DNA of 64,000 nt from Agromyces sp. S2-1-8 (GTDB lineage Bacteria > Actinomycetota > Actinomycetes > Actinomycetales > Microbacteriaceae): the NCBI RefSeq assembly GCF_021129215.1, contig NZ_JAJOLP010000001.1:2418001-2482000 (forward strand), given 5' to 3'. Positions 971 through 60,682 of the stretch are shown here, piece by piece (the stretch's first letter is position 1; each line of letters begins with the position of its first letter). The translations under genes were made by a program, and so were the position numbers. Under the pieces are notes generated by a model. The model had not been told where the DNA came from. It searched no databases and saw only the letters and a list, made by a program, of their open reading frames with translations.

Positions 971-2338
971 ATGACCACGAACACCACGACCGATGCCGCG
1001 CCGCGGCGCCGCGGCTACTGGGCGCTGTGGGCGACCGTGCCCAGGGAGTTCGCCTTCCTCATTCTGACGATGCCGATCGCGATCACGGCGCTCGTGCTGC
1101 TGTCGACGACCTTCTTCACGGGGCTCGGCCTGATCTTCCTCGTCTTCGGCATCTTCATCGTGGTCGCCTCGATGTTCATGGCGCGCGGCTTCGGCACGCT
1201 CGAGCTGGTACGGCTGCGCTGGGCCGGTCGCCGCGAGGTCGCCCGCCCCGCCTGGGAGCGGGGCGATCGCGACCAGGGCTTCTGGCGCACGATGTTCGCG
1301 CCCTTCATCGACGGGCACTACTGGCTGTACCTGCTGCACGGGCTCGTCGTGAACCCGATCGTCAGCATCGTCTCGTGGAGCCTGACCGTCGCCTGGACCT
1401 CGGTCGCGCTCGCCGGCACGACGGGCTGGATCTGGCAGCGCTACATCCCCGACGGTCGCGCCGACGAGGACTTCTGGCTGTTCGACACCGTGCTCGACTT
1501 CCTGTTCCCGGGCAACACGTGGCAGTTCGACCCGCGGGTCGGCGAGACCGTCTTCGAGCTCATCCTCGGCGTGATCTTCCTCGCGACGCTGCCCTACGTC
1601 TTCCGCGGGCTCACGCTCCTGCACGACGTGGTCGCGCGCGGAATGCTCGGGGCATGGCGGTCCGAGGCCCTCGAGCGCGAGGTCGCGCAGCTGGCTGCTT
1701 CGCGCGGCGCCGCCGTGCAGGCCGAGGACGCCTCGCTGCGACGTCTCGAGCGGGACATCCACGACGGGCCGCAGCAACGGCTCGTGCGCCTGCAGATGGA
1801 CCTCGCGGCCATCGAGCGCAAGCTCGACCGCGATCCCGAGTCGGCGCGCGAACTGCTCGGCGAGGCGCGCGACCAGGCGCGGGAGACGCTCGACGAACTC
1901 CGTGCGCTCTCACGCGGTTTCGCCCCGCCGATCCTGCAGGACCGGGGGCTCGCCGTCGGCCTCGAATCGCTCGCCGCGCGCAGCCCCGTGCCGGTCGCGG
2001 TCCAGATCACGCTGCCCGAGGATGCCTCGCTGCCGGCCCCGATCGAACGCAACGTCTACTTCGTGGCCGCCGAACTCCTGACCAACGCGGCGAAGCACGC
2101 CGAGGCGACGAGCGTGCGGCTCGCCGTCTCGACGCGCGACACCGGCGCCACGGGGCACTGGGTCGACGTCTGGGTGACCGACAACGGCCGGGGCGGCGCA
2201 TCGACGGTGCCCGGGCACGGACTCGCCGGACTCGCCGAGCGGGTCAACGGTCTGCGCGGACTGTTCGTGGTCGACAGCCCCGCCGGCGGCCCGACGACGA
2301 TCGGCGCGCACATCCCGTACAGCCCGCTGGTCGGGTAG
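926..2338 (+). CDS. Sensor histidine kinase, NarL/LiaS class (HisKA_3)
   Basis: A 470-residue membrane kinase. Residues about 30-100 and 130-240 hold four hydrophobic segments resembling the actinobacterial 'sensor' domain. The dimerisation/phosphoacceptor helix follows, with RDIHDGPQQRL and the phosphorylated His at residue 279. The C-terminal ATPase domain has the N box (AAELLTNAAKHA) and G boxes (DNGRGG, GHGLAGLAERV). A GGAGG at 913-917 lies eight bases before this ATG. The first 45 bases are three 15-bp repeats encoding (M/T)STEA, giving further in-frame ATGs at 956 and 971, so the exact start is not certain. The gene overlaps the oxidase gene and is followed by its response regulator. 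Confidence 0.93.
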   Translation: MSTEATSTEAMSTEAMTTNTTTDAAPRRRGYWALWATVPREFAFLILTMPIAITALVLLSTTFFTGLGLIFLVFGIFIVVASMFMARGFGTLELVRLRWAGRREVARPAWERGDRDQGFWRTMFAPFIDGHYWLYLLHGLVVNPIVSIVSWSLTVAWTSVALAGTTGWIWQRYIPDGRADEDFWLFDTVLDFLFPGNTWQFDPRVGETVFELILGVIFLATLPYVFRGLTLLHDVVARGMLGAWRSEALEREVAQLAASRGAAVQAEDASLRRLERDIHDGPQQRLVRLQMDLAAIERKLDRDPESARELLGEARDQARETLDELRALSRGFAPPILQDRGLAVGLESLAARSPVPVAVQITLPEDASLPAPIERNVYFVAAELLTNAAKHAEATSVRLAVSTRDTGATGHWVDVWVTDNGRGGASTVPGHGLAGLAERVNGLRGLFVVDSPAGGPTTIGAHIPYSPLVG

Positions 2339-2446
2339 CCGCGAGCCGCGCCGGCGGTCGAGCGACGACGGCACCGGGGCGTTCGAGCGGCGACGGAGGG
2401 GCAAGACCCCGCCCCGGAGCACGCCCACCCCGGGTCGTCCGCCCCC

Positions 2447-2452
2447 GATAAT
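2447..2452 (+). promoter_or_regulatory. -10 box (GATAAT) of the response regulator
   Basis: GATAAT lies nine bases before the ATG at 2462, so the transcript would start within a few bases of the start codon. The position favours the ATG at 2462 over the in-frame GTG at 2453, and suggests the regulator also has its own promoter. Confidence 0.5.
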
Positions 2453-2461
2453 GTGGGGGGC

Positions 2462-3121
2462 ATGACCGACTCGGCCCGGCCCCTCCGCATCGTCCTCGCC
2501 GAAGACTCGGTGCTCCTGCGCGAGGGGCTCGTGCGCCTCTTCGACGAGGCCGGCTTCGAGACGGTCGCCGCCTACGGCGAAGCCGACTCCCTGCTCGCCG
2601 CGATCGACGAGACGGATCCCGACCTCGCCGTGCTCGACGTGCGCATGCCGCCCACGTTCCGCGACGAGGGCGTTCGCGCGGCGATCGAGCTGCGCAAGCG
2701 CCGCCCCGGACTCGGCGTGCTGCTGCTCAGCCAGTACGTCGAGGGCACGTACGCGCACGAGCTCCTCTCGTCGGGCGAGGGGGGCATGGGCTACCTGCTG
2801 AAAGACCGGGTGGCCTCCCTCGACGAACTCGAGGACGCGGTCGAACGGGTCAGCGAGGGCGGCACGGTGCTCGACCCCCAGGTCGTGCGCGAACTGCTCG
2901 CCCGGCGCAGCGACCCGCTCGCCACCCTGACCCCGCGCGAGCGGGAGGTCATGGAGCTCATGGCCGAGGGCCGCACGAACGCCGGCATCGCGAAGCAGCT
3001 CTTCATCGGGGTCGGCGCGGTCGAGAAGAACGTGACGTCGATCTTCCAGAAGCTCGGCCTCGAGGATTCGGGCACCGATCACCGGCGCGTCCTCGCGGTG
3101 CTCACCTGGCTGCAGCGCTGA
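2462..3121 (+). CDS. Response regulator, NarL/LuxR family
   Basis: 219 residues. The receiver domain (about 8-125) has the acidic pair at Glu14-Asp15, the phosphoacceptor Asp59 in VLDVRMPP, and the conserved Lys in YLLKDR. The LuxR-type helix-turn-helix covers about 150-215 (LTPREREVMELMAEG, then IAKQLF and VEKNVTSIFQKLG). It is the cognate partner of the HisKA_3 kinase that ends 123 bases upstream. A GTG at 2453 is in frame, but the ATG at 2462 is preferred because GATAAT ends at 2452. Target genes are not evident; the adjacent oxidase is one candidate by position only. Confidence 0.95.
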   Translation: MTDSARPLRIVLAEDSVLLREGLVRLFDEAGFETVAAYGEADSLLAAIDETDPDLAVLDVRMPPTFRDEGVRAAIELRKRRPGLGVLLLSQYVEGTYAHELLSSGEGGMGYLLKDRVASLDELEDAVERVSEGGTVLDPQVVRELLARRSDPLATLTPREREVMELMAEGRTNAGIAKQLFIGVGAVEKNVTSIFQKLGLEDSGTDHRRVLAVLTWLQR

Positions 3122-3125
3122 ACGC

Positions 3126-3824
3126 TCACCGCGTCGTGCCCCGCAGCGGTGCGTGGGCGGCGAACACTCCGCGATAGCTGCGATAGCCCCGCAGCATCCA
3201 GAGCACGAACTGGGCGACGGCGGCGAGCGCGCCGAGGGCGATCGACCACGCGATCGACCCGGTCGCAGCGAAGACCAGCGCGCCGATGAAGAGGCCGACG
3301 AGCGCCGTGTTCACCACGAGCATGACCATCATCGAGCTCGCGAACACCTGCGAACGATCGCGCGCCGCGAACGGGAAGTAGGTCGTCTTCGCGCCGGCCT
3401 CGTCGTCGGTCGTACCGGTCATGAGATAGGGCTCGATGCCGGGGTCGAGATCCACGTACGCCCGGCGGAGGCGGTTCATCGCGAGGACGTAGACGAGGTC
3501 CTCGGTCGCCGTGTTGAACACCCGCAGCTGGGTGATCACCCCGAGCAGCACCAGCAGTGCGAGCACCCCGAGGGCGGCCGCGCCGAACCACCCGCGGAAG
3601 CCGGTCGCGTTGCCGAGCACGCCGAGCGAGACGAGCCCCGCCGACACGAGGGTGAGGAAGATCGCGATGCGGGTGAGCACCTCGCTCTGCGTGGTGCTCC
3701 TCGATGCGAGCAGGCTCCAGTGCTCGGTCGCGAGCATCTGCGCGCGCAGGGAACGCTGCGCATCGCTCAACGATGCGGTGTCGCCGTGGGTCGACGGCTC
3801 GGGCTCGGGTTCGACCGTCGCCAT
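3126..3824 (-). CDS. Uncharacterised four-helix membrane protein
   Basis: 232 residues with no family I can name. A charged N-terminal arm (about 1-55, MATVEPEPEPS onward) precedes two hydrophobic helices (about 55-115), a soluble loop of about 70 residues (ATEDLVYVLAMNRLRRAYVDLDP and an acidic stretch TDDEAG), and two further helices (about 165-220). This '2 TM, cytoplasmic loop, 2 TM' plan suggests a small integral membrane protein, possibly a sensor or scaffold. The frame is open to 3965, but that extension overlaps the neighbouring hydrolase gene. The Met at 3824 begins a sensible N-terminus. It converges with the response regulator, four bases apart. Confidence 0.75.
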   Translation of the reverse strand: MATVEPEPEPSTHGDTASLSDAQRSLRAQMLATEHWSLLASRSTTQSEVLTRIAIFLTLVSAGLVSLGVLGNATGFRGWFGAAALGVLALLVLLGVITQLRVFNTATEDLVYVLAMNRLRRAYVDLDPGIEPYLMTGTTDDEAGAKTTYFPFAARDRSQVFASSMMVMLVVNTALVGLFIGALVFAATGSIAWSIALGALAAVAQFVLWMLRGYRSYRGVFAAHAPLRGTTR

Positions 3825-3873
3825 ATCGGCATTCTCCACCCGGGCCGGGCGGCCCGCCATCCTCGCGGCGTGT

Positions 3874-4960: not shown

Positions 4961-4980
4961 GTCAGCCCGTCGGGAGTCGC

Positions 4981-6126: not shown

Positions 6127-6139
6127 TCGTTGCGCTCGG

Positions 6140-13767: not shown

Positions 13768-13801
13768 GGATGCCTCGGCCGAACACTCGGCCGAGGCATC
13801 C
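13768..13801 (+). terminator. clpP2 terminator made of an inverted pair of the 10-mer GGATGCCTCG
   Basis: A 15-bp perfect stem with an ACAC loop, followed by GTCGTTCTG. Both arms begin or end with the 10-mer GGATGCCTCG, which recurs through the window in both orientations. This pairing makes the hairpin. Confidence 0.85.
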
Positions 13802-18447: not shown

Positions 18448-19236
18448 GTGACCGACGCGACGGGCGCAGGGCGCCGCGACCCCGACGAGCACGAGCAGGA
18501 TGCCTCGGCGCAGGCCGGGGCGGACGGCGGTGAGTTCGGCCGGGCCTTCGCGGCCGCGGCCGAGAAGAGCGGGCTCGGCGCCCTCGCACGCGATGAGAAG
18601 CTGAGCGGTCGCGACCTGCTCGTCGCCGTCGGCGGGGTGCGAGGCATCCTCGAGGCGTTGCTGCCCGGGCTCGTCTTCCTCATCGTCTACAGCACGCTCA
18701 CGAGCTTCGCCGGCCAGGACGCCCAGGCGGCCCTGGTTCCCGCCCTCATCGCGTCGGTCGGGCTGGCCGTCGTCTTCACGCTCGTCCGCATCGCGACGAA
18801 GGGTCAGCCCACGCAGGCGATCGCCGGCCTCATCGGCGTGCTCGCGTCCGCTGCGCTCGCGCTGTGGACGGGCAACGCGCGCGACAACTACGTGCTCGGC
18901 TTCTTCACGAATGCCGCCTATGCGCTCGCGCTGCTCGTGTCGCTGCTCGTGAAGTGGCCGGCGATCGGGCTCATCGTCGGATTCCTCATGGGCGAGGGCG
19001 TCGCCTGGCGCAACGACCGCCGCAAGTATCGCGCAGCACAGTTCCTGACGCTCGTCTGGATCGGCCTCTTCGTCGCCCGGCTCGCCGTCCAGGTGCCCTT
19101 CTACCTGGTCGACAACGTCGAGGCGCTCGGTGCGTTCAGGCTGCTCATGGGGGTCCCGCTCTACGCCCTCGCGCTCATCTTCTCGTGGCTTGTCGTACGT
19201 GCCGTCTACCCGTCGGCACATCGATCGGCCGAGTGA
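18448..19236 (+). CDS. DUF3159 integral membrane protein
   Basis: 262 residues. A hydrophilic Ala/Glu-rich N-terminus (about 1-55) precedes the conserved DUF3159 core beginning DLLVAVGGVRGILEALLPG. Six hydrophobic helices follow (about 68-250), with charged loop signatures WTGNARDNYVLGFFTNA, GEGVAWRNDRRKYR and the second-last helix VQVPFYLVDN. An actinobacterial family with no established function; it may move a small solute. GTG start, co-transcribed with dut. The last six bases before the acnA palindrome separate the two transcripts. Confidence 0.9.
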   Translation: MTDATGAGRRDPDEHEQDASAQAGADGGEFGRAFAAAAEKSGLGALARDEKLSGRDLLVAVGGVRGILEALLPGLVFLIVYSTLTSFAGQDAQAALVPALIASVGLAVVFTLVRIATKGQPTQAIAGLIGVLASAALALWTGNARDNYVLGFFTNAAYALALLVSLLVKWPAIGLIVGFLMGEGVAWRNDRRKYRAAQFLTLVWIGLFVARLAVQVPFYLVDNVEALGAFRLLMGVPLYALALIFSWLVVRAVYPSAHRSAE

Positions 19237-24384: not shown

Positions 24385-26529
24385 CTACGCGCCCACGCCG
24401 CGGATCGCCGGATGGTGGAAGGTGTCGCCGAACACACGCTCCGAGGCCCCGACCCGGTCGAGGTACGGCGTCGCACCGCCGGCCTGGAAGGGCCAGCCGG
24501 CGCCGAGGATGAGGCAGAGGTCGATGTCTTCGGCCGCGGTGACCACGCCTTCGTCGAGCATGAGCTTGATCTCACGTGCGAGTTCGTCTTCGACGCGGCG
24601 CAGGATCGTCGCGGCGTCGACCGACGTCTTGCCGACGGTGATCGCCTTCTTCGCGTCCTTGGTCAGATCGGTGACCTTGCCGTGCTTGTCCTTCTCGACG
24701 ACGGGCGAGCCCAGCTTCGAGAGGGCGTGCATGTTCTCCGAGGCGTAGAACCGCTCGGGGAACTCGCGCACCATCGTGTCCTGGACGTGGGCGGCGACCG
24801 CCCAGCCGACGAGGTCGATGAGCTCGAACGGCCCCATCGGCAGCCCGATCGGCGCGAGCGCCTTCTCGACGACCGGCACCGGGGTGCCCTCGTCGACGGC
24901 GCGCGCCGCCTCGCCCATGACCTTCGCGAGCAGTCGGTTCACGACGAAGCCGGGCGCGTCGGCCGTGAGCACGGCGCTCTTCTTGAGCTTCGCGGCGGTG
25001 GCGAACGCGGTGGCGAGCGTCTCGTCGTCGGTCTTCGGGGTCTTCACGATCTCGATGAGGGGCATGACCGCGACCGGGTTGAAGAAGTGGAAGCCGACGA
25101 GGCGCTCGGGGTGGGTGAGCTTCTCGCCGATCTCCTCGACCGAGAGCGACGACGTGTTCGTCGCGATGATCGCGGTCTCCGAGAGGTGCGGCTCGACCTC
25201 GGCGAACACCTGCTGCTTCACGGCGAGGTCTTCGAAGACCGCTTCGATGACCCAGTCGCAGTCGGAGAAGTCGGCCTTGTCGGTCGTGCCCGAGACGAGC
25301 GCCCGCAGTCGATTCGCCTCGTCGGCGTCGATGCGGCCCTTCTGTTCGAGCGTGCCGATCTCGTCGCGGATGTAGGCGAGACCCTTGTCGACGCGGGCCT
25401 GGTCGAGATCGGTGATGACGACGGGCACCTGCAGGCGACGCACGAAGAGCAGTGCGAACTGGCTCGCCATGAGGCCGGCGCCGATGATGCCGACCTTCGT
25501 CACCTTCCGGGCGAGCGACTTGTCGGGCGCGCCGGCGGGGCGCTTGGCACGCTTCTGCACGAGGTTGAAGGCGTAGATCGAGGCGACGAACTGGTCGCCC
25601 GAGACGAGGTCGGCGAGCGCCTCATCCTCACGGGCGAAGCCCTCCGCCTTGGTGCCGGACTTCGCCGCCTTGAGGAGGTCGAGCGCGACGTACGGCGACT
25701 TCGCGGTCGTGCCGAGCTTGCCCTCGATGCTCTTGCGGGCGATGCCGACCGCGACGTCCCACTTGGCGAGCCGCTCGAGCTTGCCGGGAACGTTGGGACG
25801 CTTCACCTGAACCGAGCCGCCGAGCACGCCGTCGGCCCACTTGAGCGAATCCTCGAGGAAGTTGACCGGCGCGAACATCGCATCGGCGATGCCGAGCTCG
25901 AGGGCGTCCTTCGCCTTCAGCATCCGGTTGTTCTTCAGGGGGTTCTCGATGACCACCTTGAGGGCGTTCTCGATGCCGATCAGGTTCGGCAGCAGGTACG
26001 CCCCGCCCCAGGCGGGCACGATGCCGAGGAAGACCTCGGGCAGCGCGATCGCGGGCGCCGAGGCATCCACGGTGCGGTAGTCGCTGTTGAGCGCGACCTC
26101 GAGGCCGCCGCCGAGGGCGAGGCCGTTGATGAACGTGAACGAGGGCACGCCGAGCTCGCCCAGCTTGCCGAACACCATGTGGCCGAGCTGGCCCATCTTC
26201 AGCGCGATGTCGCGGCTCGGGATCTCGCCCACCTTCGAGAGATCGGCGCCTGCGGCGAGGAAGTACGGCTTGCCGGTGATCGCGACCGCCTGGATCTCGC
26301 CGGCGGCGGCACGGGCCGTCAGCTCGTCGAGCCGTTCGCCGAGCTCGATCAGCGTGACCGGGCCGAGCGTCGAGGGCCGGGTGTGGTCGCGACCGTTGTC
26401 GAGCGTGATGAGCGCGATCACGCGGCCCGACGCCAGGCGGATGTCGCGCACGTAGGAGTGCGTGACGACCTCGTCGTCGGCGAACGCGGCCGCCAGCTCG
26501 GAGAAGTCGATCTTCGAGTAGTCGGTCAT
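24385..26529 (-). CDS. Fatty-acid oxidation complex alpha subunit: enoyl-CoA hydratase / 3-hydroxyacyl-CoA dehydrogenase
   Basis: 714 residues, two enzymes in one chain. The crotonase half (about 1-300) keeps both catalytic Glu residues, in LALGGGLEVAL and IALPEVFLGIVP. The dehydrogenase half (about 335-714) has the Rossmann motif VGIIGAGLMASQ, catalytic His in VGFHFFNPVAVMP, and NTSSLSVEEI. It performs the hydration and second oxidation of the beta-oxidation spiral. The ATG at 26529 is five bases after the thiolase stop, so fadA-fadB are co-transcribed. The frame continues upstream only as a shadow of the thiolase gene. The chain-length range cannot be judged. Confidence 0.95.
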   Translation of the reverse strand: MTDYSKIDFSELAAAFADDEVVTHSYVRDIRLASGRVIALITLDNGRDHTRPSTLGPVTLIELGERLDELTARAAAGEIQAVAITGKPYFLAAGADLSKVGEIPSRDIALKMGQLGHMVFGKLGELGVPSFTFINGLALGGGLEVALNSDYRTVDASAPAIALPEVFLGIVPAWGGAYLLPNLIGIENALKVVIENPLKNNRMLKAKDALELGIADAMFAPVNFLEDSLKWADGVLGGSVQVKRPNVPGKLERLAKWDVAVGIARKSIEGKLGTTAKSPYVALDLLKAAKSGTKAEGFAREDEALADLVSGDQFVASIYAFNLVQKRAKRPAGAPDKSLARKVTKVGIIGAGLMASQFALLFVRRLQVPVVITDLDQARVDKGLAYIRDEIGTLEQKGRIDADEANRLRALVSGTTDKADFSDCDWVIEAVFEDLAVKQQVFAEVEPHLSETAIIATNTSSLSVEEIGEKLTHPERLVGFHFFNPVAVMPLIEIVKTPKTDDETLATAFATAAKLKKSAVLTADAPGFVVNRLLAKVMGEAARAVDEGTPVPVVEKALAPIGLPMGPFELIDLVGWAVAAHVQDTMVREFPERFYASENMHALSKLGSPVVEKDKHGKVTDLTKDAKKAITVGKTSVDAATILRRVEDELAREIKLMLDEGVVTAAEDIDLCLILGAGWPFQAGGATPYLDRVGASERVFGDTFHHPAIRGVGA

Positions 26530-27740: not shown

Positions 27741-27818
27741 GCTGCAGCTCCGTTTCGAAATCAGGATGCCTCGATCCTACGAACCGGTGCCGAGCGCCCG
27801 TGAATCGCTTGACGGTTC

Positions 27819-33521: not shown

Positions 33522-33597
33522 TCGGGGCACTCCCGCAGCCGATTCACCGTGCCGTCGAGGCATCCCGAAATCTGCTGTTCACACGAGACGCCCGACC

Positions 33598-35014: not shown

Positions 35015-35578
35015 GTGACTGACACCGGCCGCCTCCTCACCGCCGTCGGCCGTTTCCTGCGGGCGCTCGGTTCGGGCGGTTCGAAGACATCGGCCGCGCC
35101 ACGGACGACGACCGGGCGGGATGCCTCGCCGGCGCGGCTCGCCGATGGCGAGCCCTCCCCGGGGCAGATGGGATCCGATGCGACCGTCGAGGTCGATCCG
35201 CGGCGCCTCCGGGGAGTCCGGCTCGGTTACGCGCCGAGTCGCGACGGCGATCCCGATCCCGGTGAGGTCGTCTGGACGTGGGTGCCCTACGAGGAGCGCG
35301 ACGGCCGGGGCAAGGACCGTCCGGTCGTGATCGTGGCGGCGTCGGGGGCGGGGGACTTCCTCGCCGTGCAACTCACGAGCAAGCCGCACGACGGCGACCG
35401 CGACTACGTCTCGCTCGGCGAGGGCGCCTGGGACGCCGAGGGGCGGCCGAGTTGGGCGAAGACCGATCGCGTCTTCAGGGTGCGCACCGGCGGCATGCGG
35501 CGCGAGGCCGCCTCGCTCGACGCCGAGCGCTACACGCGGGTGGCCGATGCGCTCAATCGCCGCTACGGCTGGAGCTGA
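35015..35578 (+). CDS. PemK/MazF-like toxin-fold protein, no partner antitoxin seen
   Basis: 187 residues. A low-complexity N-terminal arm (about 1-60) precedes a PemK-like domain: GEVVWTWVPYEERDG, GKDRPVVIVAA, FLAVQLTSKPHDGDRDYVSL and SWAKTDRVFRVR. MazF/PemK toxins are ribosome-independent or ribosome-linked mRNA endonucleases. In this family the strand order and the loop after the first strand match, but no short antitoxin gene lies upstream or downstream, and the protein is longer than classical MazF (about 110). It may be a domesticated relative. The GTG at 35015 is favoured over 35006 by the -10 position. Confidence 0.8.
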   Translation: MTDTGRLLTAVGRFLRALGSGGSKTSAAPRTTTGRDASPARLADGEPSPGQMGSDATVEVDPRRLRGVRLGYAPSRDGDPDPGEVVWTWVPYEERDGRGKDRPVVIVAASGAGDFLAVQLTSKPHDGDRDYVSLGEGAWDAEGRPSWAKTDRVFRVRTGGMRREAASLDAERYTRVADALNRRYGWS

Positions 35579-39144: not shown

Positions 39145-39387
39145 GTCGGCACGGGTCCTCTCGAGTCGTGTGCGCCATCGGACAGCTCGCGGGCACTGCA
39201 CGGCCCGGATGCGGCCGACTGTAGGAGCGCGGCCCGATGTCGCACAAGGCACTGATGTGAAATGTCGATGAAGTGTCGAGTTCTTGCGCGATCGGACGCA
39301 AGCGGGTGCAAGCCCTCGTGCGCCGAGGCATCCGATCGCACGCAACTCGGCGCAAGCCGTGCGCCGGAGCGAGGGTCGGCGGCCGAC

Positions 39388-39433: not shown

Positions 39434-41413
39434 GTGGCTGACGGCTTCGAGCTCTTCACCGACCGATCCGTTGTCGCGATGCGCGTCAACGGCGAGCTCA
39501 AGGACCTCGCCACGACGGTGACGGACGCCGACGTCGCCGAACCGGTCACCATCGACTCGCCCGACGGCCTGAACATCCTGCGCCACTCGACTGCGCACGT
39601 CCTGGCGCAGGCCGTGCAGAACGTCAACCCCGAGGCGAAGCTCGGCATCGGTCCGCCCGTCACCGACGGCTTCTACTACGACTTCGACGTCGAAGAGGCG
39701 TTCTCGACCGACGACCTGAAGGCCCTCGACAAGGAGATGGCGCGCATCATCCGTGCCGGCCAGCGCTTCGTGCGCCGGGTCGTCACCGACGACGAGGCGC
39801 GCGCCGAGCTCGCGAACGAGCCGTACAAGCTCGAGCTCATCGGGCTCAAGGGGGCGGCTTCGACCGGCGGTGACAACGAGAACGTCGAGGTCGGCGCGGG
39901 CGAGCTGACGATCTACGACAACGTCGACCCCAAGACCGGCGAGGTCGCCTGGAAGGACCTGTGCCGCGGGCCCCACCTGCCGAACACCCGCATGATCGGC
40001 AACGGATGGGCGCTGCAGCGCGTCGCCGGCGCCTACTGGCGCGGCAGCGAGAAGAACCCGCAGCTCCAGCGCATCTACGGCACCGCATGGCCGACGAAGG
40101 ACGAGCTGCGCGCGTACCAGCACCGCCTGGAGGAGGCGGCCAAGCGCGACCACCGCAAGCTCGGCAAGGAGCTCGACCTGTTCAGCTTCCCCGACGAGAT
40201 CGGCTCGGGCCTGTCGGTGTGGCACCCCAAGGGCGGCATCGTGCGCGGTGAGATGGAGCAGCACGCCCGTCGCCGCCACGTCGAGGGCGGCTACACCTAC
40301 GTGTACACGCCCCACATCTCGAAGGAGGACCTCTTCCTCCAGTCGAACCACCTGGTCACCTACCGCGAGGGGATGTTCCCGCCCATCGTCATGGACGAGG
40401 AGCGCGACGCCGATGGCAACGTCACGAAGCAGGGCCAGGACTACTACCTGAAGCCGATGAACTGCCCGATGCACATCCTCATCTACAAGGAGCGCGCGCG
40501 CAGCTACCGCGACCTGCCGATGCGGCTCGCGGAGAACGGCACCGTGTACCGCAACGAGCTCTCTGGCGCCCTGCACGGCCTCACTCGCGTGCGCGGGTTC
40601 ACCCAGGACGACTCCCACCTGTTCGTCACCCCCGAGCAGCTCGAGGAGGAGACGACCCGCGTGCTCGAGTTCGTCATCTCGATGCTGCGCGACTTCGGCC
40701 TCGAGGACTTCGAGCTCGAGCTCTCGATGCGCGACGACGAGAAGTCGAAGTGGATCGGTACCGACGAGTTCTGGGAGTACTCGACGAACGCGCTGCGCAA
40801 CGTCGCCCTCGCGAGCGGGCTGAAGCTGACCGAGGTGCCCGGCGAGGCGGCGTTCTACGGCCCGAAGATCGACCTCAAGACCCGCGACGCGATCGGTCGC
40901 ACCTGGCAGCTGTCGACCGTGCAGGTCGACCCCAACCTGCCCGAGCGGTTCGAGCTCGAGTACATGGGCCCCGACGGCGAGAAGCACCGGCCGATCATGA
41001 TCCACCGAGCGCTGTTCGGCTCGATCGAGCGCTTCTTCGCGATCCTGCTCGAGCACTATGCCGGGGTCTTCCCGGTGTGGCTCGCGCCGGTGCAGGTCGT
41101 CGGCATTCCCGTCGCCGACGAGTACGCGCCGTATCTCGGGGCGATCATCGAGCAGCTGAAGGGCTTCGGCGTGCGCGCCGAGCTCGACGTGAGCGACGAT
41201 CGCATGCAGAAGAAGATCCGCACCCACACCACCCAGAAGGTGCCGTTCCAGCTCATCGCGGGAGACAACGACCGCTCGGGCGAGACGGTCAGCTTCCGGT
41301 TCCGCGACGGCAGCCAGGAGAACGGGGTGCCGATCGCCCGGGCGATCGACCTCGTGCGAGCGGCGATCGCCGACCACCGCCAGGTCACCACCCGCGACGA
41401 CCTCTTCGCATGA
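39434..41413 (+). CDS. thrS: Threonyl-tRNA synthetase
   Basis: 659 residues, full length. An N-terminal TGS-like domain (about 1-60) is followed by the editing/SAD domain: [11 protein letters not shown] with its metal His pair, and [13 protein letters not shown]. The class II core has motif 2 [21 protein letters not shown] and the zinc-binding Cys in [13 protein letters not shown], and motif 3 is [18 protein letters not shown]. The C-terminal anticodon domain is at about 560-659. It charges tRNA-Thr. The GTG at 39434 has AAGGAG at a good distance. It overlaps the HIT gene by four bases (ATGA). Confidence 0.98.
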
Positions 41414-41982
41414 CCAGCTACGGGGCCGACGAGTTCGACGGGGTGCCCACGGATGCCTCGGCCGACCTGGCCGGCGTGCCCGACGCGTTCCAGCGACTCT
41501 GGACCCCGCATCGGCTCGTCTACATCCAGCAGGGCCAGCAGCCCGACGAGCACGCCTGCCCGTTCTGCCGAGCGCCCGAGATGAGCGACGAGCAGTCGCT
41601 CATCGTCGCGCGCGGGGAGCACGCCTACGTCCTGCTCAACCTGTTCCCCTACAACTCGGGCCACCTGCTGGTCTGCCCGTACCGCCATATCGCGACCTAC
41701 GACGAGGCGAACGCCGACGAGGTCGCCGAGATCGGCGAGCTCACGCAGACCGCCATGCGCGTCGTCAAGCAGGTCTCGAAGTGCGACGGGTTCAACATCG
41801 GCATGAACCAGGGGCGCATCGCGGGTGCCGGCATCGCCGAGCACCTGCACCAGCACATCGTGCCGCGCTGGGCGCTCGACTCGAACTTCTTCCCGATCAT
41901 CGCGGGCACGAAGGCGCTGCCGCGGCTGCTCGGCGAGGTGCGGCAGGAGATCGCGGACGGCTGGCCCGCCCCGGCCGGATAG
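41410..41982 (+). CDS. HIT-domain nucleotide hydrolase/phosphorylase
   Basis: 190 residues. The histidine triad [10 protein letters not shown] has His145, His147 and His149; the middle His forms the nucleotidyl intermediate. A Cys pair, HACPFC, lies near residue 52, as in actinobacterial Ap4A phosphorylases (the Mycobacterium homologue beside thrS is one). So it probably cleaves diadenosine tetraphosphate or AMP-lysyl-type substrates. Translationally coupled to thrS. In many actinobacteria pgsA and pimA follow; here a palindrome and the minus-strand pdxY gene follow. Confidence 0.92.
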
Positions 41983-42936: not shown

Positions 42937-44298
42937 TCATCGCATCTCCGACGAGCGCGCCCGCGCGACGGGTGCCCCCGGGCTCGACACCGCTCGGATC
43001 GAGGCCGCGACGTCGGCCGCGAGCTTCGCCAGGTCGGCGTCGTCGAGATCGTGCACCGTGAGCCGCAGCCGATCCGACGGCGCCCGGTCGCCGAGGGCGA
43101 ACTCGTCGCCGGGTCGGGCCAGCCAGCCCCGGCGCATGAGCTGCTCGGCGACGTCCCTGGCCGGAGCGTCGAGCCCCACCCAGACGTTGAGCCCGTCGCC
43201 CGGGGCCGTCGGCACGCCGGCCGCCGTCAGCAGTGCTGCGAACTCGGCGTTCCGGGCGGCGTAGTGCTCGCCTGCGGTGCGGATGCCATGGGCGACGGCC
43301 GGGTCGGTCGCCAGCGCGTGCACGAGGCGCTGCAGCAGATGGCTCACCCACGTCGTGCCCGGAGTCAGCCGCATCGCGAGGCGGTCGGCGGTCTCGGGGT
43401 CGGAGGCGGACACCGCCAGGCACATGTCGGGGCCGAGGAATTTCGAGACGGACCGCACGAGCGCCCAGCGGCGGTGCTCGGGGCCGATCAGCGAATGGAA
43501 CGGCTGACGCGAGAGGAGCGAGTAGTGGTCGTCCTCGATGACGAGCACGTACGGGTGGTCGCGCAGCACGGCGCGCAGTTCGGCGGCGCGTGCGGCCGTG
43601 AGGCTCGCACCGGTCGGGTTCTGGGCGCGCGGCGTGCAGATGACGGCGCGCACCCCCTGCTCGAGCGCGGCGCGCAGCCCGTCGACCGTCATGCCCTCCT
43701 CGTCGACGGCCACCGGCACGGGGCGGTAGCCGGCGACCCGCACCGTGTGGATGCTCGTGAGGAAGCACGGATCTTCGAGGGCGACGGCGTCGTCGCGCGT
43801 GAGCGCCTGCGCGAGCAGTCGCTCGACCGCGTCGGCGGCACCGCTCGTGACGGTCAGGCGCATCGGGGTGCCGGGTGGGAGGTCGCCGCGCATCCAGTCG
43901 TCGGCCCAGCGTTCGAGTCCGGGGTCGATGACCGGTTCGCCGTAGAGCACCGGGCGTCGGGCGATGCTCGCGAGCACCGGCGAGGGATCGGGGATGCGCG
44001 AGGCATCCGGATTGCCCGTGCCGATGTCGCGCAGCGCGGTGTCGGCGGCGAAGCCCTCCTGGGCGACGGGTGCCGAGCCCGCGACGCGGGTGCCGCCACG
44101 GCCGAGCGTCACGACGATGCCTGCGCTGGTGAGTTGCCGGTATGCGGCCACGGCGGTGTTGCGATTGACGCCGAGTTGCTCGGCGAGGCTGCGCACCGGT
44201 GGGAGCGCGTCGCCCGGGCGCAGTGCCCCGCGCTCGACCAGGGCGCGCAGGCTCTCCGCGATCTCAGCCGCCGATCGTCCCTCGATGTCGATGATCAC
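42937..44298 (-). CDS. pdxR: MocR/PdxR-family transcriptional regulator with aminotransferase-like domain
   Basis: 453 residues. The N-terminal GntR winged helix (about 1-70) reads [30 protein letters not shown]. The C-terminal fold-type I aminotransferase domain contains the PLP-binding Lys in [10 protein letters not shown] and the PLP-contacting [10 protein letters not shown]. PdxR regulators activate pdxST when PLP is low and often repress themselves. Divergent from pdxS across 111 bases and upstream of pdxY. The GTG at 44298 has GAAAGG eight bases before it; an in-frame ATG at 44328 lacks a ribosome-binding site and overlaps a probable TAGCAT -10. Confidence 0.94.
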
Positions 44299-46792: not shown

Positions 46793-47329
46793 GTGAGCGA
46801 ATGGATCGCCCTGCTGCGCGGGGTCAACGTGGGCGGCATCACCGTGCGGTCGGCCGAGCTCGCCGAGCTCTTCAGGGGGCTCGGCTTCGATGCCGTGCGC
46901 ACCGTGCTCGCGAGCGGCAACGTCGCGTTCTCGACGGGCGCGGCGGGCGAGGCGGATGCCTCGGCGCTGAAGTCGACCATCGAGCGGGCGCTCTCCGACC
47001 GGTTCGGGTACGAGGCGTGGATCGTGCTCGTCTCGCGCGACGAGCTCGAGCGGGTCATCGCATCGTTCCCGTTCGACGACGAGCGCGAAGGCTGGCACCC
47101 GTACGTGGTCTTCTCGTCGTCGCAGGCCGCGCTCGACGAACTCTTCGCGGCGGCCGTCGGGGTCGATGCGGCCGACGACGTCGTCGCCCCGGGCGACGGG
47201 GTGCTCTACTGGCACAACCGTCGCGCACGCGGGGTCGACAGCGCGTTCTCGAAGGTCACGGCGAAGGCGCGGTTCAAACCGAGCATCACGACGCGCAACC
47301 TGCGAACGCTGCGCAAGCTCGCCGCGTGA
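46793..47329 (+). CDS. DUF1697 domain protein
   Basis: 178 residues. Family core: WIALLRGVNVGGI at the very N-terminus, LASGNVAFSTG, the middle alpha/beta repeat ([17 protein letters not shown]) and the C-terminal SKVTAKARFKPSITTRNLRTLRKLA. The fold consists of two ferredoxin-like halves; activity is unknown. GTG start is supported by the family N-terminus and by the -10 position. It stands between the hemerythrin-like gene and yebC. Confidence 0.92.
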   Translation: MSEWIALLRGVNVGGITVRSAELAELFRGLGFDAVRTVLASGNVAFSTGAAGEADASALKSTIERALSDRFGYEAWIVLVSRDELERVIASFPFDDEREGWHPYVVFSSSQAALDELFAAAVGVDAADDVVAPGDGVLYWHNRRARGVDSAFSKVTAKARFKPSITTRNLRTLRKLAA

Positions 47330-48206: not shown

Positions 48207-48836
48207 ATGCGGGTGCTCGGCATCGACCCCGGGCTCACCCGCTGCGGCGTCGGCGTGGTCGACGTCCAGGGCGACCGCACGGCGCGGCTGGTCGACGTCG
48301 TCGTGCTGCGGTCGCCGACCGACGCGCCGATCGAGCGTCGCCTCGCGCGCATCGCCGACGGGCTCGAGGCGATCTTCGACGAGCACCGGCCGCAGGCGGT
48401 CGCGCTCGAGCGGGTGTTCGCCCGGTCCGACGTGTCGACGATCATGGGCACGGCGCAGATCTCGGGCGTCGCGATGCTCATCGCTGCGCGCCGGGAACTG
48501 CCCGTCGCGCTGCACACGCCGTCCGAGGTGAAGGCCGCGATCACCGGCTACGGCCGCGCCGACAAGAAGCAGGTCGGGGCGATGGTGGCGCGCATCCTGG
48601 GGCTCGAGGCGGTGCCGAAGCCCGCCGACGCCGCGGATGCGCTCGCGCTCGCGATCTGCCACGCCTGGCGCACCGGCGGCGTCGCGGGGGCGGCCATCCG
48701 CGAGGAGGCGCTCGGTCGCGCGCGGGGCGGCGCGGCGACGGCGGATGCCTCGGCGCTGACCCCGGCGCAACGCGCGTGGCTCGCCGCGGAGCGCTCCGCC
48801 GCCGTGTCGGGGGCGGCCCGTAGGGTGAAGGAGTGA
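48207..48836 (+). CDS. ruvC: Holliday junction resolvase RuvC
   Basis: 209 residues. RNase H-like fold with the metal-binding acids: Asp7 in [13 protein letters not shown], Glu in VALERVFA, and the C-terminal Asp pair in [16 protein letters not shown]. It cuts four-way junctions symmetrically in complex with RuvAB. The last 40 residues are a low-complexity tail that includes one GGATGCCTCG copy (encoding Asp-Ala-Ser). It overlaps ruvA by four bases (GTGA). Confidence 0.97.
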
Positions 48837-56806: not shown

Positions 56807-56903
56807 CACCCCATGCTGCGGTATCCGCGGTGCCGGAAACGGGCGATCGGCCGTCCTGTGGAGAACGGCCGATCACACGTGGATGTCGCGGAGGAGTCGA
56901 ACC

Positions 56904-58136
56904 TCAGCCGCCGACGGCCTTCAGCCAAGCACGGCGAGCCTCGAGCGCCTCGCGTGCCTCTGCGGCGGCCTTGTCGTCGCCGGCCGCCTCTGCGGCGGAG
57001 AGCTCGGACTCGAGCTTCTCGATCGCCTCCTGGAGCTGACCGAGCATGCCCTCGGAACGCGCCTTCTTCTCGGGGTCCTCGCGCTGCCAGCGCTCGTCCT
57101 CCAGCGAGCGGACGTGGTTCTCGACCTTGCGGAGGCGATCCTCGATCGGGCGGACCTGATCGCGGGGGACGCGGCCGATCTCGTCCCACTGGCGCTGGAT
57201 GCGGTTGAGCGCGGCGCGCGCGGGCTTCGGGTCCTTCTCGCCGAGCAGGACCTCGGCCTCGGTCAGGAGCACGAGCTTCTCGTCGAGGTTCGCGCGGTAC
57301 GCCTCGTCCTCCTTCGCGTCGATCTCGGCCTTGGCGTCGAAGAGCACGTCGCCCGCGGCCTTGAAGCGTGCCCAGAGCTGGTCGTCGAGCTTCTTGCCGG
57401 CGCGTCCGGCCAGCTTCCACTCGTCGAGGAGACTGCGGTAATCGCCGACCGCGTCGGCACCGCGCGGTGCGAGCGCCTCGGCGCGCTCGATGAGTCGCTG
57501 CTTGCGAGCGCGCACATCGCGGTGGCTCGCGTCGAGCTCGGCGAAGAAGGCCTTGCGATGCTGCTCGATGGTCGAGCGTGCGGCGCGGAACCGCTTCCAC
57601 AGGTCGTTCGCCTCGCCCTTGGGAAGCCGGGGGCCCTCCTGCTGGTGGCGCTGCCAGCTCGCGAAGAGGGCGTCGAGCTCTGCGGAGGTCTGCTTCCACT
57701 GGGTCTTCGCCGGGTCTTGAGCAGCGAGCCGCTCGGCCTGCTCGACGATGCGCGTGCGCTCGGTGATCGCCTCGCCCAGCGCCGCCTTCGCCTCGGCCTG
57801 CTGCTGTTCGGTGAGCTCCTTCGTCGTGCCCGAGAGGGCCTCGAGCCGACGGGAGAGCGCGTCGAGGTCGCCGACCGCGTGGGCATCGGCGACGGAGTCG
57901 GTGAGCGCCGCCACGGCCTTCGCCACGTCGGCCGCGGGCGCGCCGCGACGCACGCGCTGCTCGAGCAGCGTGACCTGACCGGCGAGGTCGGCGTACTTGC
58001 GCTCGAAGTACGCGAGCGCCTCCTCAGCCGTGGCATCGGGGTACTGGCCGACCTCGCGTTCGCCGTCGCTCGTGCGGACGAAGACGGTGCCCGTCTCGTC
58101 GACGCGGCCCCACGGTTGCTGATCTGATTCGGTCAC
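56904..58136 (-). CDS. DUF349 coiled-coil protein
   Basis: 410 residues, almost entirely helical. Several DUF349 units are visible, each with the 'W..F' spacing: LWKRFRAARSTIEQHRKAFF, LWARFKAAGDVLFDAKAEID and RQWDEIGRVPRDQVRPIEDRLRKVENHV. The last 40 residues are Ala/Glu-rich coiled coil. The family is widespread in actinobacteria and uncharacterised; a role in RNA or ribosome binding has been suggested for relatives but is not shown here. GTG start with AGGGTGAGG upstream. The frame stays open back through the 78-bp repeats, which carry an in-frame ATG at 58169. Confidence 0.85.
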   Translation of the reverse strand: MTESDQQPWGRVDETGTVFVRTSDGEREVGQYPDATAEEALAYFERKYADLAGQVTLLEQRVRRGAPAADVAKAVAALTDSVADAHAVGDLDALSRRLEALSGTTKELTEQQQAEAKAALGEAITERTRIVEQAERLAAQDPAKTQWKQTSAELDALFASWQRHQQEGPRLPKGEANDLWKRFRAARSTIEQHRKAFFAELDASHRDVRARKQRLIERAEALAPRGADAVGDYRSLLDEWKLAGRAGKKLDDQLWARFKAAGDVLFDAKAEIDAKEDEAYRANLDEKLVLLTEAEVLLGEKDPKPARAALNRIQRQWDEIGRVPRDQVRPIEDRLRKVENHVRSLEDERWQREDPEKKARSEGMLGQLQEAIEKLESELSAAEAAGDDKAAAEAREALEARRAWLKAVGG

Positions 58137-58147
58137 GGCCTCACCCT

Positions 58148-58352
58148 GTCGTAGGTCGGATGCCGCCATCGGCGGCGATGCTGCGGTCAAGCCTACTGAG
58201 CGGCGGACACGGGCTGTGCCGCCGCGTCGTAGGTCGGATGCCGCCATCGGCGGCGATGCTGCGGTCAAGCCTACTGAGCGGCGGTCACGGGCTGTGCCGC
58301 CGCGTCGTAGGTCGGATGCCGCCATCGGCGGCGATGTGCTGTCAAGCCTATT
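58148..58352 (-). repeat. 78-bp tandem repeats, 2.6 copies
   Basis: Copies begin at 58148, 58226 and 58304; the first two differ by a single base, the third diverges and is partial. Each contains GCCGCC-ATC-GGCGGC, a small perfect hairpin, and on the minus strand TTGACC or TTGACA. They fill the region upstream of the DUF349 gene. The period is divisible by three, so the minus-strand frame reads through as 26-residue repeats. Confidence 0.95.
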
Positions 58353-58377
58353 GCACCGGTCGAAGACGGCGCCGCGC

Positions 58378-59154
58378 TCACTCGATCGTGACGGAGGTGA
58401 TCGTCGTGGGGACGGTCGGGGCGCCGTCGGACGCTCCATCGGCCGGTCCGGCATCGGTGATGCCCGCCCGCAGCTCGTCGAGCCCGCTCGTCACCCGACC
58501 GATCACCGTGTATCCGCCGTCGTCGGTCGGGAGCGTCGTGTCCTCATAGACGATGAAGAACTGGCTGCCCTGGCTGTACGTGTTTCCGGGCTGGCGCGCC
58601 ATCGCGATCGTGCCGGCGGGGTAGACCCCGTCGGCCGGCGCGTTCTCGATGGGGCCGTAGCTGTAGCCCGGGCCACCGCTGCCGTCGCCGTTCGGGTCGC
58701 CGCACTGCAGGACCCAGATCGAGTCCTTCGTGAGCCGGTGGCAGCTGACGCCGTCGTAGAAGCCCGACTGGATGAGGCTGATCTCGCTCGACACCGCCTG
58801 CGGTGCCGCGGCGCCGTCGAGCTCGACCCCGAGCGGGATCTCGTTGAGCGTCAGCGTCCCGGTCCAGGTCCGGTCCTCGGCCAGGTCGGCCGAGGGCACG
58901 TCGCCCTGGTTCTCGCCGGCGGCGGCCGACGGCGTCGGCGTGGCCGAGGCCTCGGGCTCCGGGCTCCCCGGGCCGCCGTTGAAGAAGAAGAGCTGCGCAC
59001 CGACGGCGAGGGCCAGCACGACGACGAGCGTGATGCTCGCGATGACGTTGTCGCGCGTGCGACGCCGCTGCTTGCCGGCGTGCACCTCTTGCCTGGCCTG
59101 GTAGGTGCGGAGGCGTGCGCGTTCCTCGCGTGCCTGACGGTCGTTCGATGCCAC
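58378..59154 (-). CDS. Membrane-anchored cyclophilin-type peptidyl-prolyl isomerase
   Basis: 258 residues. A basic N-terminus (about 1-35) and one helix (about 38-60, [22 protein letters not shown] by segments) anchor a Pro/Ser/Thr-rich linker (about 62-95) and an extracytoplasmic cyclophilin domain: [46 protein letters not shown] and [13 protein letters not shown]. Residues of the isomerase site (His/Arg in CHRL, Gln in GSQFF) remain. Probably folds exported proteins. GTG start with AGGAG six bases upstream. The preceding DUF349 gene is transcribed the same way. Confidence 0.92.
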
Positions 59155-59280
59155 GCCTGCTCCTTCTCGGCCGACCCCCTCGTGGGAGTGCTGCTGCGAG
59201 CCGACTCTACAAAAGCCCTCGGGCGTGCACCAATCGCCGCGCTGCACGGCGGCGCAGAAGGCGGTGTCGGATGCCGCGGC

Positions 59281-59286
59281 TACGCT
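59281..59286 (+). promoter_or_regulatory. -10 box of rarA (leaderless geometry)
   Basis: TACGCT ends seven bases before the ATG at 59294; no Shine-Dalgarno sequence. Confidence 0.45.
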
Positions 59287-59293
59287 TGATCGC

Positions 59294-60682
59294 ATGGTGG
59301 ATTCCGGCCCGGGACTGCGCTCGGGCGCGACCCCGCTCGCAGTGCGCATGCGCCCGACCAGCCTCGACGAGGTCGCCGGGCAGCGGCATCTGCTGACCCC
59401 CGGTTCGCCGCTCGTGGCGCTGGCCGGCGATCGCACCGGCGAGAGCGGGTCGGTGTCGGTCATCCTCTGGGGGCCGCCCGGTACGGGCAAGACGACGCTC
59501 GCCCAGGCGATCGCCCGATCGTCGGGGCGCAAGTTCGTCGAACTCTCCGCCGTCACTGCCGGCGTGCGCGACGTGCGCCACGTGATGGAGGAGGCCCAGG
59601 CCAGCCGCGACCTCTACGGCATCTCCACCGTCCTCTTCCTCGACGAGATCCACCGCTTCACGAAGGCGCAGCAAGACGCATTGCTGCCGGGCGTCGAGAA
59701 CGGGTGGGTGATCCTCGTCGCCGCGACGACCGAGAACCCGTCGTTCTCGGTGATCTCGCCCTTGCTGTCGCGGTCCCTGCTGCTGACGCTCGAACTCCTG
59801 AGCGACGACGATCTCGGTGTGCTCGTCGACCGTGCCGTCGCCGATCCGCGAGGGCTCGCGGGCAAGGTCGTGCTCGACCCCGAGGCGCGAGCGGCGATCG
59901 TGCGGCTCGCCTCGGGTGACGCCCGTCGCGCGCTCACCGCGCTCGAGGCCTCGGCGATCTCCGCCGCGGCCGAGCCGGCCGTGGCGGCGGAGACGTCCGA
60001 CGGCGACTCCGAGTCGGGGGAGCGCGAGGCCGAGGCATCCTCGCCGGTCATCACCGCCGATGTGGTGGCGCGCGCCGTCGACCGGGCGCTCCTGCGCTAC
60101 GACCGAAACGGCGACGAGCACTACGACGTGATCAGCGCCTTCATCAAGTCGGTGCGCGGCAGCGACGTCGACGCTGCACTGCACTATCTCGCGCGCATGA
60201 TCGAGGCGGGCGAAGACCCGCGGTTCATCGCGCGCCGCATCATCGTGCTCGCCTCGGAAGACATCGGCCTCGCCGACCCGCAGGCGCTCGGCGTCGCGGT
60301 CGCCGCCGCCGACGCGGTGCAGTACATCGGCATGCCCGAAGGGCGCATCCCGCTCGCGCAGGCCGTGGTGCACCTCGCAACGGCGCCGAAGTCGAACGCC
60401 GCGTACCTCGGCATCGACCAGGCCATCGCCGACGTGCGCGCGGGCAAGGCCGGGCGAGTGCCGAAACACCTGCGCGATGCGCACTACCCGGGGGCGAAGC
60501 GGCTCGGGCACGGCAAGGGCTACCGGTATCCGCACGACGACGCGATCGGCGTCGTCGCGCAGGAGTACCTGCCCGACACCCTGCGCGGCGCGGTCTACTA
60601 CGAGCCGACCGAGCACGGCAACGAGCGCGAGGTCTCCGCACGCCTCGCGAAGATCCGGCGCATCGTGCGCGGCGAGCGCTGA
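59294..60682 (+). CDS. rarA: Replication-associated recombination protein A (RarA/MgsA)
   Basis: 462 residues. AAA+ domain: [15 protein letters not shown] (Walker A), [10 protein letters not shown] (Walker B), [11 protein letters not shown] (sensor 1), SGDARRAL (sensor 2). The tetramerisation domain has [15 protein letters not shown] and RHEARRI-like [19 protein letters not shown], and a C-terminal MgsA region [19 protein letters not shown]. Acts on stalled replication forks. An Ala/Glu-rich insertion at about 228-252 contains one GGATGCCTCG copy (reverse). Probably leaderless. Confidence 0.96.

Follow-up and report, generated by a model that had tools for sequence, protein, structure and literature searches.

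The window, a stretch of 64,000 nucleotides from Agromyces sp. S2-1-8, carries ruvC, genes resembling those for a histidine kinase, ClpP, a fatty acid oxidation complex, an ATP adenylyltransferase, a MocR-type regulator and a RarA-like AAA ATPase, and, scattered within and between genes, 15 exact copies of the 10-base word GGATGCCTCG. Each of them was found at the position and on the strand reported in a preliminary description of this DNA. Genes were delimited by our own crude calls, and the names clpP and clpX are assumed from recognition in the translations and not from a family search. The copies are as follows:

2020..2029, plus strand: copy in a histidine-kinase-like gene (926-2338, plus; family match below the curated cut-off), Asp-Ala-Ser
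13768..13777, plus strand: left arm of a convergent inverted pair; the stop codon of the clpP-like gene lies 17 bases before
13792..13801, minus strand: right arm of the convergent inverted pair begun at 13768
18498..18507, plus strand: copy in the gene at 18448-19236 (plus), Asp-Ala-Ser close to the N-terminus
18640..18649, minus strand: copy in the same gene (18448-19236, plus), Arg-Gly-Ile
26059..26068, minus strand: copy in a fatty-acid-oxidation-complex-like gene (24385-26529, minus; match below the curated cut-off), Asp-Ala-Ser
27764..27773, plus strand: intergenic copy
33556..33565, minus strand: intergenic copy
35119..35128, plus strand: intergenic copy
39324..39333, minus strand: intergenic copy
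41451..41460, plus strand: copy in an ATP-adenylyltransferase-like gene (41410-41982, plus; below the curated cut-off), Asp-Ala-Ser close to the N-terminus
43999..44008, minus strand: copy in a MocR-like regulator gene (42937-44298, minus; match below the curated cut-off), Asp-Ala-Ser
46954..46963, plus strand: copy in a gene without family match (46793-47329, plus), Asp-Ala-Ser
48743..48752, plus strand: copy in the part of ruvC encoding the C-terminal tail (48207-48836, plus; family match over the curated cut-off), Asp-Ala-Ser
60031..60040, minus strand: copy in a RarA-like AAA ATPase gene (59294-60682, plus; match below the curated cut-off), Glu-Ala-Ser

By these calls nine copies are coding and six intergenic, not ten and five as described before, and the nine comprise seven Asp-Ala-Ser, one Glu-Ala-Ser and one Arg-Gly-Ile, where eight Asp-Ala-Ser copies had been counted.

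Among all 10-mers of the window, GGATGCCTCG ranks first. It occurred 0.44 times on average and three times at most in 100 dinucleotide-preserving shuffles, and an order-3 Markov model predicts 0.77 copies, in agreement with the original estimate of less than one. The Agromyces genome (4.1 Mb) harbors 1,386 copies. The reversed word is absent genome-wide; since this control word contains TAG and would be rare in any case, its count is low by itself, and wherever sequence was at hand the assessment was based on shuffles and Markov models. In a genome sample of 60 stretches (1.228 Mb; 59 from contig 1 plus the window), 436 copies stand against 14.9 expected at order 3 and 61 at order 5, the latter value being inflated by the word itself. 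Coding copies number 288 as compared with 10.1 (maximum 16) in 50 synonymous-codon shuffles, an excess of about 29-fold, and 245 of them sit in two frames, yielding Asp-Ala-Ser or Glu-Ala-Ser. On the basis of the same crude gene calls, the density is 0.72 per kb between genes vs. 0.28 per kb within genes. The shuffles and Markov models rule out chance, Markov background and codon choice as causes of the excess. The observation of a repeated word is confirmed, and the preliminary description understated the case.

GGATGCCTCG is not its own reverse complement and is present in all 60 sampled stretches, with counts per 20 kb that are Poisson-like once pairs are merged (mean 6.8, variance 6.9, none of 58 stretches empty). 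Its copies are split 688/698 between the strands genome-wide, and over 41 choices of origin the leading-strand share never exceeds 52.3%. This lack of polarity along the replichores rules out a polar Chi- or KOPS-like signal, against which the strand balance in the window had already been held to speak. Outside the 10 bases, the flanks are near background in the 60-stretch sample, which also rules out a repeat element with longer shared flanks. Contig C2 (83.6 kb, of which 80 kb were read), a single element that is probably a plasmid judging from its size and GC content, carries two copies in the part read vs. about 28 predicted from the chromosomal density.

Within the sample, only 38 neighboring pairs of copies lie within 100 bases of each other. 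Convergent pairs within 40 bases number 26 vs. 1.6 expected, and 12 of the 26 are located between convergent genes. For the one pair that was folded, 13768/13792, the RNA of the 44 spanning bases reaches -38.4 kcal/mol (z -9.85). Convergent inverted pairs are thus placed behind genes in the manner of terminators, with termination itself as their putative function.

GGATGCCTCG is only one of the spellings in which a broader word exists. It was found in 60 of 60 Agromyces genomes with 104 to 1,549 copies each, as was GGATGCCGCG with 255 to 2,894 copies, and the counts of the two are negatively correlated (Spearman -0.40, uncorrected for kinship). On a tree of 41 Agromyces, the set to which the analysis of phylogenetic clustering applies and in which it covers T vs. 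G spelling, dominance of one or the other requires three changes as compared with about 11 after shuffling, and none of 500 shuffles gave as low a number. Different species and genera carry different spellings around a GGATG core, with class-wide word densities read by eye, and GTATGCCGCG is abundant in Tetrasphaera and present also in two Actinomycetota metagenome-assembled genomes. Many genera of the Microbacteriaceae show an enrichment of GGATG, and its excess is missing from several others at the sampled loci. The assessment of enrichment used 8 to 21 kb per relative, 64 kb of this genome and 100 kb each of G005, G017 and G035, with 38 of 80 loci of named relatives analyzed. The nearest named genomes are those of Agromyces, which agrees with the Microbacteriaceae suggested in the preliminary description, and in A. 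kandeliae and A. tardus ComEC occupies the contig positions at which it lies in G024 and G058, two genomes of the same genus. The dialects with their conserved core seem to follow phylogeny, as is the case for words of the DUS/USS type.

Comparison of aligned positions adds to this picture. Where relatives were one base off the T word, 173 of 201 comparisons (66 sites, 41 species) have their difference at the dialect letter, base 8, while for two large controls sharing the 3' half (151 and 800 sites) this share is 20/435 and 143/5,227. In three small controls, single changes fall on base 8 in 12/37, 9/24 and 0/77 cases; among six scrambled control words, the comparison was limited to the two with more than five sites. 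For the G word the contrast is weaker (295/765 base-8 changes vs. 493/2,270 and 599/4,037 in controls). Of the 759 comparisons for the T word, 481 show at least two differing bases, so that in most cases the aligned position in a relative is without the word. The alignments indicate that the spellings switch in place at the dialect letter.

The com genes are represented in this genome by a comEA-comEC operon without visible damage, in which the ComEC N-terminal model and PF03772 score above and ComEC/Rec2 and comE below their curated cut-offs; PF03772 matches Escherichia coli and other controls too. Among 60 Agromyces, ComEC was detected in 58 and missed in two drafts, which are broken into about 810 and 840 contigs; it was also detected in 44 of 44 genomes of a further set, two of which are Agromyces already counted among the 60. 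It is present also where the sampled 20 kb are without GGATG excess and thus fails to distinguish genomes rich in the word from those poor in it; being found everywhere among the tested genomes except the two fragmented drafts, it is ruled out as the determinant. The same holds for type IVa pili, since presence of PilM (16 of 80 genomes, including 7 of the 60 Agromyces) does not track word copies: this genome with its 1,386 copies gave no PilM match, and G006 has PilM with 107 GGATGCCTCG and 575 GGATGCCGCG copies. T2SSF, likewise rejected as determinant, occurs in 59 of 61 genomes irrespective of the word. The misses are G064, a genome of 1.4 Mb, and G464, which shows GGATG excess at its sampled locus; G456 and G463, which bear the word, each gave a single weak match. 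For this genome, T2SSF yields six matches; the three that are listed lie at C1:168258-169599 and C1:2156679, where we suppose Tad loci. DNA transport machinery is encoded here but is not discriminating, and no receptor emerged from comparing the PilM, ComEC and T2SSF profiles.

According to a 2025 paper, Neisseriaceae and Pasteurellaceae are the only families known to have DNA uptake sequences. The anatomy of DNA uptake sequences (DUS) and uptake signal sequences (USS) given in PMC3630211, PMC1852404, PMC12616744 and PMC13020248 matches that seen here. In the Neisseriaceae, GCCGTCTGAA and its dialects are recognized by the minor pilin ComP. They share with GGATGCCTCG a length near 10 bases, copy numbers of a thousand or more per genome, dialects that track phylogeny and keep an invariant core, the presence of two dialects in one genome and inverted pairs tied to terminators (PMC3630211, PMC1852404, PMC12616744). 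On the other hand, GGATGCCTCG is unrelated to them in sequence, belongs to a high-GC Gram-positive phylum and would be read by a putative receptor; absence of the CTG core and of a PilM match in the genome rules it out as a neisserial DUS proper. The Pasteurellaceae USS AAGTGCGGT resembles it in abundance, inverted-pair terminators and the existence of two types that share a core (PMC1852404, PMC12616744) and differs by AT-rich downstream parts (PMC12616744), whereas flanks here are near background. Cyanobacterial HIP1, GCGATCGC, is likewise a highly iterated word; it is palindromic and linked to methyltransferases (PMC4390886), unlike the directional GGATGCCTCG with its dialects. Micrococcus luteus is naturally transformed in a Flp/Tad-dependent manner with ComEA, ComEC and Flp pili, and no uptake sequence is mentioned for it in the available part of the source (PMC6370729). 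It shares actinobacterial ComEA/ComEC with Agromyces, where this equipment, including T2SSF, is known from genes and competence is putative.

Taken together, we consider it probable that this Agromyces species has in GGATGCCTCG its own dialect of a word resembling DNA uptake sequences, which extends across much of the Microbacteriaceae and serves self-recognition in natural transformation. Of the initial proposals, that of a non-polar, uptake-like word is favored by missing polarity, tree-clustered dialects, in-place switching and inverted pairs; the parallel to HIP1 is weaker because HIP1 is a palindrome tied to methyltransferases and GGATGCCTCG is no palindrome. Free DNA would be taken up by the cell, with fragments bearing the word preferred by a protein at the surface or in the membrane that reads the sequence; ComEA itself or a minor pilin belonging to a Tad/Flp-type filament may have this role. 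Preferred fragments would then cross ComEC and recombine, and the preference would return word-bearing alleles to the chromosome, so that copies would accumulate at all sites where Asp-Ala-Ser or Glu-Ala-Ser is acceptable to the protein. An altered reader would pull copies toward a new spelling, and closely spaced inverted pairs may have been co-opted for transcription termination.

Chromosome-wide binding by a nucleoid or segregation protein would agree with the even spread and with the scarcity on contig C2. We regard such a chromosome-organization site as unlikely, given that close species differ in spelling at hundreds to thousands of sites with in-place switching, which would presumably be difficult for a cellular DNA-binding protein to drive, that parS-like sites exist separately and that terminator-like inverted pairs are not predicted. 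Chi sites have a strong leading-strand bias, and the absence of strand polarity under all 41 half-splits renders a recombination or repair hotspot read by AdnAB, AddAB or RecBCD quite improbable, even though known Chi motifs also are short, abundant words with lineage-specific spelling (cf. PMC8022716). A Chi-type function gives no reason for convergent inverted pairs either. A word read by a methyltransferase or defense system as a methylation or self/non-self mark could draw on the GGATG core, which is identical to the FokI site. Usual modification sites are shorter than this 10-base non-palindrome, and modification alone is not expected to yield the codon build-up or in-place switching. Despite the example of HIP1, for which such a role is discussed and which is linked to methyltransferases (PMC4390886), we think this explanation rather doubtful as well. 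Scattered remains of a REP/BIME-like repeat element or terminator family would account for inverted pairs behind genes and for the strong fold of one window pair. This is very improbable and largely refuted by the analysis of flanks and frames, as sharing ends with the 10 bases, 288 of the 436 sampled copies lie inside genes, mostly in two frames, and close neighbors are few. An effect of composition or codon context that involves no reader could be argued from the enrichment of GGATG in many genera and a presumable tolerance of Asp-Ala-Ser as a peptide; it is refuted by the shuffles as well as by intergenic enrichment and copies on both strands and is barely conceivable.

Returning to DNA uptake, we lean slightly toward the view that the Microbacteriaceae dialects and the sister word GTATGCCGCG of Tetrasphaera and the two Actinomycetota metagenome-assembled genomes constitute a third, independently evolved DNA-uptake-sequence system, the first in a Gram-positive phylum, in which each lineage would mark its own chromosome with a dialect, with a putative reader in transformation, not tied to type IVa pili and with a dialect switch halfway in the sister pair formed by this genome and G049. 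Among the literature matches listed, in which preprints and subscription journals are thinly covered, no report of uptake sequences in Actinobacteria was found, none reports natural competence in Agromyces by its title, and those retrieved for the letters of the words look unrelated by title. If this third case in the Actinomycetota is true, self-recognition in transformation would have evolved again, and the dozens of species involved, with their numerous dialects and what looks like an ongoing switch, would provide replicate lineages that could test its driver, uptake bias vs. selection for kin DNA. Natural competence would be predicted for many soil actinobacteria, and the word would offer a practical handle for transforming them.

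The T word GGATGCCTCG is the top over-represented 10-mer of the window. All 15 copies listed in the preliminary description lie at their places, and its estimate of less than one copy expected by chance agrees with values of 0.44 from dinucleotide shuffles (maximum 3 in 100) and 0.77 from an order-3 Markov model. Throughout the genome of Agromyces sp. S2-1-8 (two contigs, 4,099,562 bases), 688 forward and 698 reverse copies were counted and the reversed control word, which contains TAG and is rare anyway, was absent. In this genome, G000, the window spans C1:2418001-2482000. By ClpX, Agromyces kandeliae and A. tardus are its closest named genomes; their ComEC genes share contig positions with those of G024 and G058, which belong to the genus of the window, and this identifies the genus as Agromyces. 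Our sample of the window plus 59 stretches of contig 1 covers 1,227,939 bases, roughly 30% of the genome, and comprises 436 copies, with at least one in every stretch and Poisson-like spacing along the contig. Little information resides in the flanks outside the ten bases of these 436 copies, the exceptions being a rhythm resembling that of codons and a bias towards C on the 5' side and G on the 3' side of the word.

With regard to strand, the earlier claim of a non-polar word holds, the near-equal genome-wide counts being accompanied by a leading-strand share of at most 52.3% over 41 origin/terminus placements and by strand counts per contig quarter of 67/59, 46/64, 49/48 and 47/56. Seven TTTCACGTGAAA sites, which we take to be parS-like, are located within 4.7 kb (L019:14246-18925, corresponding to G000:C1:694246-698925) and suggest that the origin region lies at about 694-699 kb. 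Contig 2 (83.6 kb), perhaps a plasmid, has a GC content of 64-69%, lower than that of the chromosome, and features two copies of GGATGCCTCG in the 80 kb read vs. about 28 predicted from chromosomal density.

According to our own gene calls (1,044 genes, 83% coding, in the 1,227,939-base sample), 288 copies fall within genes and 148 between them, at densities of 0.28 and 0.72 per kb, respectively. Two frames account for 245 of the 288 coding copies, reading Asp-Ala-Ser (117) or, on the opposite strand, Glu-Ala-Ser (128). A codon-preserving shuffle, proposed in the preliminary description as a check, left the enrichment standing: exchange of synonymous codons within genes yielded a mean of 10.1 copies (maximum 16 in 50 shuffles) vs. 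the actual 288. GAT makes up 10% of the Asp codons in the sampled genes, and GAT-GCC-TCG spells 122 of 271 Asp-Ala-Ser occurrences. Asp-Ala-Ser and Glu-Ala-Ser themselves occur at 1.7 and 1.6 times the prediction from residue frequencies, compared with 0.59-1.06 times for eight related tripeptides.

Among 38 adjacent pairs of GGATGCCTCG no more than 100 bases apart, 32 are convergent (plus then minus), four divergent and two tandem. Convergent pairs within 40 bases number 26 vs. 1.6 expected under random placement; 12 of them are situated between convergent, nine between co-directional and two between divergent genes, three are inside genes, and many start 5 to 25 bases 3' of a stop codon. The sole pair that was folded, 5' of clpX in the window, gave -38.4 kcal/mol (z -9.85). 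The occurrence at terminators of inverted DUS and USS, the uptake sequences of Neisseriaceae and Pasteurellaceae, is well documented (PMC1852404, PMC3630211, PMC13020248), and the convergent pairs 3' of genes in the source genome resemble these terminator-associated pairs.

The words of relatives, derived from counts without a preset word, differ among genomes and keep the same core, GGATG. GGATGCCTCG and GGATGTCTCG occur side by side in genome G035, GGATGCCGCG (the G word) and GGATGGCGCG in G017, GTGGATGCCG in G005 and CGGATGCGG in G376, which belongs to a different genus. Less evidence, 4 to 6 copies in 20 kb, supports GGATGCCCCG or its frame-shifted reading in G053, G046, G001 and G038 and GGATGTCGCG in G013. 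GGATGCCGCG is also among the top words of Microbacterium ginsengisoli. Every one of the 41 Agromyces samples shows more GGATG than an order-2 Markov model predicts, by a factor of 1.3 to 2.2. Of 20 other genera, 16 exceed that expectation 1.4- to 2.3-fold and four (G089, G100, G110, G121) are flat. Among the named loci analysed, 17 of 23 from Microbacteriaceae reach at least 1.4-fold; those below are Labedella, Amnibacterium, two Curtobacterium, Clavibacter and Microbacterium kyungheense, although GGATGCCG ranks among the top words of the last of these. The 15 loci from other families all stay below 1.4-fold (maximum 1.34).

Whole-genome counts for 60 Agromyces range from 104 to 1,549 for GGATGCCTCG and from 255 to 2,894 for GGATGCCGCG, the T spelling prevailing in 14. 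When mapped on a tree of 41 species built from one locus by a quick method, T/G dominance requires three changes vs. about 11 in shuffles, with none of 500 as low. The counts of the source genome (1,386 T, 541 G) and of G049, its sister on that tree (941 T, 1,043 G), are suggestive of a dialect switch in the recent past.

Switching in place was followed at T-word sites in clpX-centred orthologous regions of the 41 Agromyces (flank identity 0.78-0.92). Of the 759 aligned comparisons, which are non-independent because several species inherit one change, 77 show identical sites, 201 deviate by a single base and 481 by at least two, such that most relatives lack the word at that place. The single difference concerned the dialect letter, base 8, in 173 of the 201 cases and the other nine positions together in 28. 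For large controls that share the 3' half of the word and differ in the 5' half, the dialect-letter share was 20/435 and 143/5,227; small controls gave 12/37 (GGACGCCTCG) and, for two scrambles, 9/24 and 0/77. Part of the effect may therefore be codon context, yet the 86% of the T word stands apart. For the G word (295/765 vs. controls of 493/2,270 and 599/4,037), the contrast is weaker.

Several other repeats were observed. A second repeated word of the source genome, GGTCTCGATACG, occurs 17 times in the 1.228-Mb sample, in part as clusters or in inverted arrangement, for example in two sampled stretches:
L029, position 3975: GGTCTCGATACG
L029, position 5439: GGTCTCGATACG
L029, position 5491: GGTCTCGATACG
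L029, position 12925: GGTCTCGATACG
L046, positions 2081-2113: GGTCTCGATACG
Since TATCGAGACC, which forms part of the reverse complement of this word, is a top word in another genus (G122), GGTCTCGATACG is perhaps REP-like. In Galbitalea (L082), 19 kb contain 11 sites of the palindrome GTCTCGAGAC (22 counts over both strands), far in excess of Markov expectation, and the repeat found around TGCGCAATGCAGG in G005 (L164-L167) is likely a separate element.

In a family sample of 398 genomes, GGATGCCTCG exceeds 100 copies in 12 of 12 Agromyces. Judged by eye from the tabulated counts, about a dozen further genera include genomes above this number, and most of the rest are near chance. A count over 393 genomes of the class showed GNATGCCGCG to be high in numerous members of the family to which the window belongs, as well as in G522 (881) and G757 (551), both from one genus of family f4. 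Outside these two families it stays at or below about 50 per Mb by eye, some genera, e.g., f11/g118, mildly exceeding the reversed control. Copies of GTATGCCGCG number 850 in Tetrasphaera australiensis Ben110 (L132), 422 and 519 in two Actinomycetota metagenome-assembled genomes (those of L118 and L131), 74 and 57 in others labelled Ornithinimicrobium and Intrasporangium, four in Intrasporangium flavum and six in the source genome. The resemblance of GTATGCCGCG to GGATGCCGCG suggests that both belong to one older system, or perhaps that they converged. Locus L111, from a record titled Vibrio cholerae 35D, encodes a ClpX with 77% identity to the Agromyces protein and is ranked together with loci of Arthrobacter; the record may be mislabelled or contaminated.

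A comEA-comEC operon that shows no visible damage (TIGR00361 and comE below, TIGR00360 and PF03772 above curated cut-offs) is present in the source genome, as are T2SSF-type loci. ComEC is present in 58 of 60 Agromyces and 44 of 44 genomes of a second sample and, being nearly everywhere, is compatible with uptake and not discriminating. PilM distribution is patchy, and comparison of ComEC, PilM and T2SSF revealed no separator of word-rich from word-poor genera.

We lean towards GGATGCCTCG being a DNA uptake word and give lower weight to roles in chromosome organisation, as a recombination hotspot or in methylation. A competent cell with a putative reader would prefer free DNA bearing the uptake word, which would cross by ComEC and then recombine. 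Copies would build up at tolerant sites and track the reader when its taste shifts, and inverted pairs would be re-employed as terminators. The literature matches listed contain no report of an uptake sequence for Actinobacteria; as far as sequence can tell, GGATGCCTCG appears to behave like a DUS.
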